This document shows, piece by piece, positions 13,069 through 21,667 of a DNA stretch of 64,000 nt (the first letter of the stretch is position 1; every line of letters begins with the position of its first letter). Position numbers and translations under genes: made by a program. This DNA is from Halogranum gelatinilyticum. Its GTDB lineage: Archaea; Halobacteriota; Halobacteria; Halobacteriales; Haloferacaceae. Where the stretch lies: NCBI RefSeq assembly GCF_900103715.1, contig NZ_FNHL01000002.1, forward strand, positions 124,001 through 188,000. The letters are read 5' to 3'. The notes below the pieces were generated by a model. It was not told where the DNA came from. It saw nothing but the letters and a program-made list of their open reading frames with translations, and did not search any database.

Positions 13069-13124
13069 TGCTCGGTAGGGGATTCGAACCCCTGTCCTCG
13101 GCTCGAAAGGCCAAGATGATTGGC
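13069..13124 (-). repeat. Displaced 3' part of tRNA-Glu (distal attachment site of the element)
   Basis: These 56 nt repeat the 3' part of the intact tRNA-Glu (21593-21648) with one difference, C at 13085 against T at 21609. The match covers the anticodon loop, variable region, T arm and 3' acceptor strand and ends in the D-stem side. The sequence beyond 13124 does not supply a matching 5' acceptor strand, so this is not a functional tRNA. It is the classical scar left when a tyrosine-integrase element inserts into a tRNA gene. Confidence 0.88.
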
Positions 13125-13141
13125 ACGCGCCTTCGGCGCGT
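13125..13141 (+). other. Perfect hairpin at the element's inner edge of the distal attachment site
   Basis: ACGCGCC-TTC-GGCGCGT is a 7-bp perfect stem with a 3-nt loop, starting at the first base after the tRNA-Glu repeat. It could be an arm-binding or structural signal of the recombination site, or a terminator. The position exactly at the junction is the reason for listing it. Confidence 0.5.
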
Positions 13142-13399
13142 ATTCAACCACCAAACGGCCCAAATCCGCTTTGTTTCAGCAGTGGGTACTACATCCTAAT
13201 GTATGAAGGTACTTAAAACCCGGTTGTTGGGCCGACAGCCAAGTGACACTCACCGCAAATCGGTGGAATCTCAGTCTGCTTGGCTTTCCGGGCCGACCAT
13301 ACTCAGACGATAATTGAGACGTGGAGTGATGAGCAAGATAGTTGCCAAAAGACGGCTCAGATGGCTTTCTCGGACGATTCAACGCATCGAGCGGGCTGT

Positions 13400-13696
13400 T
13401 CAGTCTTCCGAGTAGTCGATACTCTCCACCGCGACGAGGTCGCCTTCCATCGGGTCTTCGTCTGCGTGGTGGTAGTAGGCTGTCTCCACCGTGTTCCCCT
13501 CGGAGTAGGAGAGGATGAACTGCTCTTCTTCGCTGTCAACGAGGTCGATGAAGCGAACCGCCTCACCGGGACTCGGCTGTTCTGTGCGGGTCGTGACGAC
13601 CTCGTACTCTGTCCCGTTCAGGGAGAGGAAGTCGCCCTCCTCGATCTCCTCGAACGCGGGAAGCCGCTCTCTCACCGCATCGACGGTCATGACCAT
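13400..13696 (-). CDS. Small acidic hypothetical protein of the element
   Basis: 98 residues from ATG 13696, or 96 from the in-frame ATG at 13690. Acidic and soluble; an SH3-like or beta-rich pattern is suggested by short alternating strands (GDFLSLNGTEYEVVTTRTEQ, then EGDLVAVESIDYSED). Codon use and acidity look haloarchaeal, which supports a real gene. I do not recognise the family. It sits alone at the distal end of the element, reading toward the displaced tRNA fragment. A single-copy antirestriction or regulatory role is possible, but nothing in the sequence shows it. Confidence 0.6.
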   Translation of the reverse strand: MVMTVDAVRERLPAFEEIEEGDFLSLNGTEYEVVTTRTEQPSPGEAVRFIDLVDSEEEQFILSYSEGNTVETAYYHHADEDPMEGDLVAVESIDYSED

Positions 13697-14698
13697 GCGT
13701 TCCGGGTTGCGTGTCCGTCACTTGAAGTTTCTCCACCTCACGCTCTACCGCATCGAGGAGGGTTGTTTCACTTGTTCGCCTGAAACGCCGTCGAAAGCCC
13801 CGTTCTTTGGCGAGAAGCTCTCATACAAGCACTTTCCTCAGACTCTAAGACGCCTGAAATCGCAGTCTCAGACCGGGATTTTCGCAGGCGGAGTCACCTA
13901 CTCACGCGATTAGCGATTCGGGTAATGTTCTAACTTGACTCTATTTCAGAAGAAATTAAACATTCGTAATATTCACTCCCGCTCTCAATTCACTGTGTCT
14001 CCGAATACTTCAGCTTCTCTCTGAGGTCGTCTAAGAGCGTCTTGATTGCCAAGATGAGTCCTCCATCTCGGTGACTATTGAACGCGATTCTGACGGCACT
14101 CTGCCACCACAGAATCAGACTGCATTGTCAGGGGAACCCCGACTCCATGAGACGGCACACTGTGGCTTTCCATTACTGCTGTCACTCCGTGGCCTACAAT
14201 GAGTGTATTACCACTACGGACACCAAAGCTGGATAAACACTACGAATCAACGCATAGAGGCGGTGTGTTTGGTTTGTACGTTAGATCGATACACTGGTTG
14301 AGTGGCCTTACTTACAGTGTACATACTACTATCGTACATCCGTAGTGTATGCCCCCTGTTGCTACCAGTGAAGTAGAAACGACACCATGAACCTTACAGA
14401 TGTTTCCTAAACGCTGTTTCTAGTATCTGCTTGTAATATAGTGGGTGCGTGGTTATCTTTTGATGGTATTAGCGCATCATAATATCTGTGTCATCAACCA
14501 CTGGCAGGGTGTCGAGTCGAGCTGTGACTGGCACTCCAACCCCAGCGGTGATAGTCGAGATAACCACGCATCGAGGTCGAAAGAGCAGTCGACCGGTGGG
14601 GTCTGTCGAACCGAAGACGAACTCCGCACCTCGATGCGGTAAAACACGATAGGTCGAACACATGAAACGTTATGTCCCCATCTTGAGACTGACAACCC
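13697..14698. other. AT-richer non-coding stretch upstream of the type IIG gene
   Basis: About 1 kb between the small hypothetical gene and the restriction-modification gene. Short frames on both strands show no protein-like composition except the remnant at 13990-14127. Copies of CGCATCGAGG or its complement occur at 13749, 14567 and 14629. A partly palindromic AT-rich patch lies near 14316-14350 (GTGTACATAC and GTACATCC around a central ACTATC). The last 60 nt must hold the promoter of the type IIG gene. Confidence 0.55.
13990..14127 (-). pseudogene. Possible C-terminal fragment of a lost gene
   Basis: A 45-codon open frame on the minus strand ends at TGA 13990-13992 and has no ATG or GTG start. 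The translation includes RIAFNSHRDGGLILAIKTLL and then DDLREKLKYSETQ, a credible amphipathic helical C-terminus, unlike shadow translations in this window. An in-frame stop lies directly upstream at 14128-14130. I read it as the decayed end of a former element gene of unknown family; chance remains possible. Confidence 0.3.
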
Positions 14699-19828: not shown

Positions 19829-20323
19829 CTACATCTCGGTCAGGTACTCTCGCTCCTCGTCGGTCAACCCGTTGGCCTCTCGGTGACGGAGCATCCCCTT
19901 CTCGTCGAACGCTCCGAGTTCCTCGCAGACGCGAAGCCGGAGGTAACGGCGCATCGAGGCGTCGTGTCCCTCGAAGCTGTCGTGGTAGTCCATGAGGTCG
20001 TGGTACGAGGCATAGGGGAGCGGTCGGCTGTCGAACTGCTTGACCTCGTCCAAGCCTGCTTCTGCGACTTCCACCTCCCGCTCGATGAGTTCGACCACGT
20101 CGTCGTCATCCGTCTCGCGGTGAAGTCGGATGAGTGCCGCGAGGAGTGGCGCACCGGAAGGGAAGCCTGTCTCCGGTGGGGCGTCGTCGGGATAGACTGT
20201 CCCCACTGTCGCCTCGATAATCTGCCCCTCGATGCGCTGTTTCTCTCCGGGAGACTCTGCCAGTCCGTACTCGACAATCAACCGCTGTACCTCGTCAGTG
20301 TCGTACAGGTATCCGTCTGTCAT
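19829..20323 (-). CDS. Integrase-linked protein of unknown function
   Basis: 164 residues from ATG 20323. A GTG at 20332-20330 is in frame three codons upstream and overlaps the integrase stop as GTGA, which would be tight coupling; both starts are plausible. The protein is acidic and mainly helical, with no membrane segment or clear HTH: YDTDEVQRLIVEYGLAESPG, then a repeated pattern of Asp/Glu-rich helices. Position directly after the integrase in one transcript suggests a role with recombination, such as directionality or regulation, but no motif supports this. Family not recognised. Confidence 0.72.
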   Translation of the reverse strand: MTDGYLYDTDEVQRLIVEYGLAESPGEKQRIEGQIIEATVGTVYPDDAPPETGFPSGAPLLAALIRLHRETDDDDVVELIEREVEVAEAGLDEVKQFDSRPLPYASYHDLMDYHDSFEGHDASMRRYLRLRVCEELGAFDEKGMLRHREANGLTDEEREYLTEM

Positions 20324-20328
20324 CGTGT

Positions 20329-21441
20329 TCACCCCATCCGCTCTAGTGCGTCTCGGCGGTGTTCGACCGGGACGTTGTCGTACTTCATCGTCGTCTGCTC
20401 GCTCTTGTGCCGCAACTGTGCCTTTGCCGCCGCGAGGTCGCGTTCGTGAGTCATCGCCGTCCCCGTGGAGTGGCGAAGCGCGTACCAGCTCATCTGCCGG
20501 TTGTCCGTGGGAATCCCGGCTATGTCGCAGAGCTTCACGAGTAGCCGACGGAGGCTCTGTGTCTGGTACGGGTTTCCTTCGCGCGTGAGCCACAGTTCGT
20601 CGGCGTCGTCGTACTGCTCGTACTGCTCACGCTCGTTCATCCATCGTTCGAGGGCGTCGGTCGTTCGGTCGGAGAGTGCGACCACCCAGTTGCCATCGTT
20701 CTTTGCCGAGTCCTCTTTCGGGATGCGGAGGACACTGTTCTCCACGTCGACCCACGACACCTTCGCACGCTCCACTTCGATGGGTCGAAGCCCGCAGTCG
20801 AGGCTGACCCACGTCATTGAGGTGAACTTCCAGCTGTTCGCCCGCTCCCAGTCGTCGGCGGTGATCTCCTCTTTCGGCTTCCCGAACCGTTGGGCGAGAA
20901 CCGCCTTCCACTTGTCGAGGTCGTCGCCGTGGGTATTGCTGTACGACGGAATCGAGCCGTACTCCAGTGCGGCTTCTCGCACCTTCTTCCGCTCCTCGAT
21001 GGTGAGGTACTCTCGCGGCCCGGAGTCGCTACTCGTGTTGCTGAACGAACGCTCCGGTTCCCACAAGTCGTCGCCCTTCTCGTTTGCCCGCCATTTGAAC
21101 AGCCGCTTGAGGGCCTTCTGTGTGTTCGCCTTGTGCGTCGCCGTTGTGTCCGAGTAGAGGAGTTCGGTCATGTAGGCGTCGGCGTGGTCGTGGGTGAACG
21201 CGACCGTGTAGCTGTCCTCCTGCTCCGTCCACACCCATCGAGCGAACTGGTCGGTTCGGTACGCCGTCGCTCGGATGGTGTCGCGTCCGTAGCCCTCTGC
21301 GAGTTCAGGGTTCTTGCCGAGATGGATGAGCCAACGCACGAACTCGATGCGGTGAGCCTCGTAGTCGGTGGCCTGCTTTTCCTTCAAGATTTCACGGCTC
21401 TTGTCGGTCACAAGTGGGAAATCCTCGGGGTTGAGACTCAT
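20329..21441 (-). CDS. Tyrosine recombinase / integrase of the tRNA-Glu element
   Basis: 370 residues from ATG 21441. An N-terminal core-binding region (about residues 15-115, SAM-like helices ending in NTQKALKRLFKWRANEKGDD) precedes the catalytic domain. Active-site residues are visible: Arg in CGLRPIEVERAK (about 215), Lys in the PKEDSAKND hairpin (about 242), YALRHSTGT (box II, with Tyr in place of the first His), LRHKSEQ and the nucleophile Tyr in TTMKYDNVP near 354. It should insert and excise the element at the tRNA-Glu 3' part; the gene sits 152 nt from the intact tRNA, reading away from it. The downstream gene overlaps or abuts its stop. Confidence 0.93.
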   Translation of the reverse strand: MSLNPEDFPLVTDKSREILKEKQATDYEAHRIEFVRWLIHLGKNPELAEGYGRDTIRATAYRTDQFARWVWTEQEDSYTVAFTHDHADAYMTELLYSDTTATHKANTQKALKRLFKWRANEKGDDLWEPERSFSNTSSDSGPREYLTIEERKKVREAALEYGSIPSYSNTHGDDLDKWKAVLAQRFGKPKEEITADDWERANSWKFTSMTWVSLDCGLRPIEVERAKVSWVDVENSVLRIPKEDSAKNDGNWVVALSDRTTDALERWMNEREQYEQYDDADELWLTREGNPYQTQSLRRLLVKLCDIAGIPTDNRQMSWYALRHSTGTAMTHERDLAAAKAQLRHKSEQTTMKYDNVPVEHRRDALERMG

Positions 21442-21592
21442 GGAGAAATCCCCTTCTCGTGAATTGAGCCTGACAAGAACGCTAATCGCTGTACGGCGTC
21501 GGGGTGGGTATACGTACGAATCGAGTTGGCCTGTGGGGTGAACATAGTTTTGTCACTCCACGGCTGAAATTGGGCGGTAGAAGCCGTAAGGA

Positions 21593-21667
21593 TGCTCGGT
21601 AGGGGATTTGAACCCCTGTCCTCGGCTCGAAAGGCCAAGATGATTGGCCGGACTACACCAACCGAGC
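21593..21667 (-). tRNA. tRNA-Glu (TTC), integration target
   Basis: 75 nt on the minus strand. The acceptor arms GCTCGGT and ACCGAGC pair fully, and the anticodon loop CTTTCGA gives anticodon TTC. The T loop is TTCAAAT. The 3' 56 nt (21593-21648) are repeated at 13069-13124, so the 5' end is the original chromosomal part and the 3' part was supplied by the element. Confidence 0.93.

Follow-up and report, generated by a model that had tools for sequence, protein, structure and literature searches.

An integrated element of 8468 bp, with a type IIG restriction-modification (RM) enzyme as its main cargo, lies in a tRNA-Glu(TTC) gene within the 64,000-nt stretch of Halogranum gelatinilyticum DNA analysed here (the window; positions 124001-188000 of contig C2 in a haloarchaeal genome of 3.77 Mb and 11 contigs). 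The element encodes a tyrosine integrase, a type IIG enzyme that appears to be intact, and three proteins of 98, 241 and 164 residues, the latter two called orf241 and orf164. The preferred reading, to which a probability of about 0.85 is assigned, is that of a small integrative element whose integrase recombines with tRNA-Glu(TTC) and whose cargo belongs to an enzyme family that travels as a reassorting module. The element sits in its tRNA target in a defined direction and with its coding capacity intact, and elements of this kind recur in other haloarchaeal genomes with their parts reassorted.

Anatomy of the element and its insertion site

The intact tRNA-Glu(TTC) gene, recognised by ARAGORN and by the Rfam tRNA model, occupies minus-strand positions 21593-21667; the 56 nt at its 3' end are the repeat unit found at both ends of the element. 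A single family of direct repeats is present within 12000-23000, with 56-nt copies at 13069-13124 and 21593-21648 that are 98% identical (1 mismatch) at a spacing of 8524. The element between them (13125-21592) has a G+C content of 55.0%, compared with 65% in the rest of the window and 63.7-66.7% in each downstream 8.5-kb stretch tested, and it is missing from the congener G002. After insertion, the intact tRNA and the integrase gene (20329-21441, minus strand), which starts 151 bp from this tRNA, stand together at one end of the element, and the opposite end is marked by the distal attachment site (13069-13124, minus strand), a displaced 3' piece of the original tRNA-Glu. An arrangement of this kind, with a 56-nt tRNA-Glu repeat around 8.5 kb and an integrase at the intact-tRNA end, had been proposed in an earlier note, and it was borne out by ARAGORN, the repeat search and the open reading frames.

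The same note had named beforehand, as a test, the finding of an empty tRNA-Glu in a relative, and such a site is present in G002 (locus L037), where the sequence CTTTTCCACTGAACTACTCTCGGAGCG, a match to the window sequence beyond the displaced fragment, directly follows tRNA-Glu, with conserved genes on both sides. Moreover, at the single mismatch between the two repeat copies the T-loop reads TTCGAA in G002 and in the displaced fragment and TTCAAA in the intact tRNA of the window; from this comparison, the displaced copy is the old 3' end of the host gene, and the present 3' end, 56 nt long, came with the element. In another congener, G001 (L038), the same tRNA-Glu is occupied by an insert of 1.9 kb (L038:4320-6232), with a gene for a KaiC-like ATPase, no integrase and the TTCAAA allele, so the site is a recurring insertion target; this insert and the window element are related in sequence at both ends. 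Additionally, a second short tRNA 3'-end relic is found in G002 just past the otherwise empty tRNA-Glu (L037:4468-4532), which suggests an old insertion followed by loss.

The integrase has 370 residues, an intact reading frame, the catalytic residues R..YxxR..Y and PF00589 (8e-17) as the only domain found with Pfam. Membership of the HSTV2-like archaeal integrases requires 30% identity or more across 60% of the length, together with a single PF00589 domain (PMC8371274), and the window protein belongs among them, being 49.5% identical to the HSTV-2 integrase over 100% of the length, with HSTV-2 as its nearest viral relative type. It resembles the integrases of this family, which are classical and non-suicidal (PMC8371274), in PF00589, in the catalytic residues and in having a gene that is intact after insertion, but it is not virus-borne and has orf164 directly downstream. 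Mechanistically, it would recombine the 56-nt stretch common to the element and the 3' part of tRNA-Glu(TTC).

No replication or virion genes were recognised among the open reading frames of the element, and none of them matches a capsid, portal or terminase in Pfam or PHROGs. The anatomy and the domain matches thus support the earlier description of an integrative element in tRNA-Glu that lacks such genes and has a type IIG enzyme as its main cargo. No element gene for transfer between cells was recognised either, and for this step the element would have to rely on DNA uptake or on a virus or plasmid that carries it.

The type IIG enzyme and its spread in haloarchaea

The enzyme (14699-18580, plus strand; 1293 residues) matches the Pfam families Eco57I (6e-32), N6_Mtase (4.7e-15), HSDR_N (8.4e-6) and TaqI_C (3.1e-6). 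Its N-terminus is an HSDR_N-like PD-(D/E)XK nuclease (RPDYIT..EFK), followed by an N6 methylase (DPSCGSGTF, NPPY) and a TaqI_C-like specificity domain; these nuclease, adenine methylase and specificity domains, all above the Pfam cut-offs and on one polypeptide, define it as type IIG. The same single-chain combination is found in the Eco57I/MmeI-like enzymes and in the N-6 DNA methylase of the HF1/HF2 viruses (phrog_16674, matched at 1706 bits); the enzyme of the HF1/HF2 group is 69% identical over the full length, but that of the window is encoded on an element that is not a virus, sits at tRNA-Glu and has a different integrase. Each of the 30 homologues aligned, whether from a genome or a virus, retains the motifs PD..EFK, DPxCGSGTF and NPPY. 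From its domains and the integrity of its motifs, adenine methylation at a single short motif of the host genome is the most likely activity of the enzyme, which would also cut DNA that lacks this mark, such as that of an incoming virus or rival element. A relation to PglX of the bacteriophage exclusion (BREX) system was rejected: the best BREX model scored 128.8 bits, far below its cut-off of 400, and none of the other BREX genes was found in the element.

Members of the enzyme family, taken at E<=1e-150, occur in 47 of the 391 haloarchaeal genomes and 30 of the 86 genera sampled, as well as on Halorussus plasmids and in HF1/HF2-group viruses (about 69% identity, beside an integrase). The comparison covered 52 distinct enzyme loci. 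Repeats of a tRNA 3' part (Glu, Val, Ala, Thr, Gly, Leu, His) bracket 20 of them, a tRNA lies no more than 8 kb away in 37, and an integrase from either of two families lies no more than 10 kb away in 27; taken together, 42 have at least one of these three features nearby. All of these are minimum counts, since the flanks covered 8-10 kb and some contigs stop short of that. Control regions from the same genome set (20 regions of 20 kb) gave 0 brackets, 4 tRNAs and 1 integrase, which corresponds to Fisher p values of 4e-4 for brackets, 1e-4 for tRNAs and 1.3e-4 for integrases, all of them indicative, as the loci are not phylogenetically independent. Two other loci are about as small as the window element or smaller: L128, in another genus, has 8.9 kb with the same integrase-orf164-orf241-enzyme order as the window, and at L146 (L146:7786-12144, genome G060) the type IIG gene stands alone between tRNA-Leu repeats in 4.3 kb without an integrase, the smallest such unit seen. 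The earlier view of the element as a minimal mobile defence unit therefore stands well supported by L128 and L146 as far as a minimal mobile RM unit is concerned; defence remains a putative role, drawn from homology.

Reassortment of integrases, enzymes and recognition domains

Five tRNA-Glu elements combine related integrases with this enzyme, namely that of the window and those at L128, L129, L131 and L063, and their parts have separate degrees of relatedness. The window element is 87% identical to L128 in the integrase and 76% in the nuclease plus methylase part of the enzyme, and the corresponding values for L063 are 73% and 88%. L128 and L129 share 92% identity in the integrase and 90% in the nuclease-methylase part, with 26% in the recognition domain; similarly, the enzymes of L058 and L044 have methylases that are 94% identical and recognition domains that are 24% identical. 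This domain (residues about 801-1160) is variable in the alignment of the window enzyme with its 30 homologues, the best likeness to the window version being about 61%. Mapped onto the enzyme tree (29 tips), the integrase family switches 9 times, about as often as in shuffles (9.9). The RM cargo can also be of another type: in genome G138, the integrase-orf164-orf241 backbone of L130 and L198 (C1:600684-615921; L130:1954-8086), in 15.2 kb between tRNA-Glu repeats, is accompanied by a type I RM system (HsdM, HsdS and HsdR) in place of type IIG, and at L132 a 65% identical integrase is located at tRNA-Glu with no RM genes recognised there.

These comparisons show the enzyme family to be a travelling module that has reassorted among integrases, tRNA sites, proviruses and viruses, its recognition domain having been swapped separately. 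RM-carrying genomic islands and integrative elements with a site-specific integrase, a tRNA target and RM cargo are known in bacteria and archaea; in comparison with these in general, the present case is set apart by a haloarchaeal family, an integrase-orf164-orf241 backbone and the interchange of type IIG and type I systems. The element is ordinary in kind, yet it is part of a widespread and strongly reassorting group, which was not found described as such in the searchable literature, most subscription papers lying outside the reach of that search.

A single type IIG family is thus carried by tRNA-directed elements and by viruses in roughly one third of the genera sampled, and this offers a concrete and testable route by which archaeal populations may change their restriction specificity. 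RM genes are known to be patchy and often transferred in haloarchaea, the vehicle being left unnamed (PMC6471742). While the exchange of recognition domains is evident from the comparisons, the new specificities are putative; through such exchange each element could bring its own, and the recognition motifs of these natural swaps could be read from methylomes.

Role of the enzyme and origin of the element

Several points weigh against a small integrative element with a travelling RM module. It is known as a single copy in one assembly, its excision and its benefit to the host are steps that we infer, and the methylating and cutting activities of the enzyme are predicted from sequence, its role being possibly defence, self-protection or that of a selfish gene. 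Furthermore, 10 of the 52 enzyme loci have neither a tRNA nor an integrase in the examined stretch; these ten may be plasmids, short contigs or truly fixed genes.

Two other roles of the enzyme have to be weighed. The first, that of an addiction module which stabilises the element by post-segregational killing, follows the idea in the earlier note that the enzyme keeps the element in the host; it is compatible with the integrative element described above, but it is unlikely. RM genes can be selfish, and their patchy distribution in Halobacteria has been read in this manner (PMC6471742). The enzyme is intact at L146 and L155, yet no integrase was found in the examined flanks of these loci, as an addictive gene might predict; nevertheless, retention without an integrase is equally expected from a useful enzyme. 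In type IIG enzymes both activities are on one chain, and cutting and methylating should dilute together after loss of the gene; the classical unequal decay of two proteins is not obviously applicable, and for this reason addiction is not obviously expected.

The second role would be mainly that of a methylase protecting the element from host restriction, with a silent nuclease. Although self-modification is the presumed function of methylases carried by viruses (PMC8651126; PMC7230728), the nuclease motif is kept in 30 of the 30 aligned homologues, which argues that cutting is under selection and makes a purely anti-restriction enzyme improbable.

As for origin, it is very unlikely that the element is what remains of a tailed HF1/HF2- or HSTV-2-like provirus after decay to its integrase and the neighbouring enzyme, since, although HF1/HF2-group viruses have an integrase adjoining the 69%-identical full-length enzyme near the viral attachment site (attP) (PMC7230728) and the closest viral integrase is of HSTV-2 type, the viral integrase beside the enzyme is just 39% identical to that of the window, the attP of the HF1 group is a partial tRNA-Thr(GGT) rather than tRNA-Glu (PMC7230728), no virion gene was recognised, the compact L128 element shows the same order of genes in another genus, and on the enzyme tree the window enzyme pairs with that of the L063 element (support 0.998) and the virus copies with L138. 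Proviruses of the HF1 group share with the window element an integrase, a tRNA attachment site and an adjacent methylase gene, but they are about 77 kb long, use tRNA-Thr and contain virion and replication genes (PMC7230728), none of which was recognised in the window element. In these viruses, the methylase lies in a variable region next to the integrase and the tRNA attP, and its capture from a host near the integration site has been proposed (PMC7230728).

A dispersed motif in related elements

The motif CGCATCGAGG occurs in 8 exact copies in the 8.47-kb element and in 2 in the other 55 kb of the window (Fisher p = 3e-6, for a pattern chosen after being noticed). The intergenic copies in the window (13383, 13749, 14251, 14567, 14629, 18684 and 18771) share an extended 19-bp consensus, GNGNTTYAMCGCATCGAGG. 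Convergent pairs of the motif flank the enzyme gene, one just 5' of it (14567-14638, with copies at 14567 on the plus strand and 14629 on the minus strand) and one just 3' of it (18684-18780, with 18684 on the plus strand and 18771 on the minus strand). A stricter form, TTYAMCGCATCGAGG, has 2 matches in the whole genome, both within the element, and its matches in other genomes likewise fall in related elements (3 of 3 in G138, and the sole match in each of G024 and G288). The motif is also enriched in L128, L129, L130, L188, L190 and L191, and L131 has the variant TGCGATGAGG. Among close pairs (n=16), 11 are convergent and 0 divergent; the copies often form convergent pairs 34-134 bp apart.

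L188, L190 and L191 were found via the motif; they are tRNA-associated, have other integrases and contain several intergenic copies each, and the remaining places found in this way have one copy each. L188 and L190 carry another type IIG-like gene, recognised in L188 with Pfam and in L190 from a near-identical start and nearly equal length. Near this gene in the tRNA-associated element L190 is also a 303-aa protein (L190:7945-8856) with a GSYKNTT..DVDIVV start, which we take to be similar to the CD-NTases of cyclic oligonucleotide-based antiphage signalling systems (CBASS); Pfam gave no match for it at E 0.01.

Some explanations of the motif were discarded. Its arms do not behave as a hairpin with a variable stem (complementarity of 154, against 161 for shuffled arms), and the sole Rfam match is the tRNA. 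A recognition site of the enzyme is unlikely, given the 9 copies in L130 despite the lack of a type IIG gene there, and coding bias can account for the genic copies (Arg-Ile-Glu and Leu-Asp-Ala codons) but not for the intergenic ones. The literature matches listed for the core motif concern unrelated subjects. A tentative and rather doubtful suggestion is that convergent intergenic pairs of GNGNTTYAMCGCATCGAGG mark a shared, undescribed control or cargo-exchange system of tRNA-integrated haloarchaeal elements, mostly RM-carrying and with differing integrases, in which the motif could, for instance, provide the operators of one regulator or the boundaries where defence genes swap.

Small proteins and other features

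The orf164 gene (19829-20323, minus strand) starts 5 bp past the integrase stop, and its homologues hold the same position in L128, L130, L131 and L063, with identities of 57, 54, 45 and 36%, respectively. The SNJ2 integrase has helper proteins encoded in its operon (PMC8371274); by comparison, orf164 may be a partner of the window integrase, which is a reasonable guess. Its predicted structure (predicted local distance difference test, pLDDT, of 45) is of no use.

The conserved element protein orf241 (18888-19613, minus strand) has homologues in L128 (64%), L130 (53%) and L131 (28%), is weakly shared by other elements and has a weak match to phrog_12649 (1e-10); no homologue was found in phage and plasmid records. 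Its low-confidence, all-helical model (pLDDT 51) makes a DNA-binding helical protein possible. The best Foldseek matches are cyclin and TFIIB, none at E<0.001, and a TFB/cyclin-like factor was rejected after profile comparison with the TFBs of the same genome (1% probability). The third small protein, of 98 residues, is acidic and is encoded by an open reading frame at 13400-13696 on the minus strand; neither this protein nor orf241 or orf164 received a family assignment above the cut-off in four libraries.

A sequence search of the whole assembly found no further match to the insert itself, its tRNA part giving weak matches (77-86%) at two other places in the genome. The chromosomal genes that flank the element encode a 3-hydroxyacyl-CoA dehydrogenase/enoyl-CoA hydratase fusion and a DUF7344 protein, and their position is conserved in congeners.

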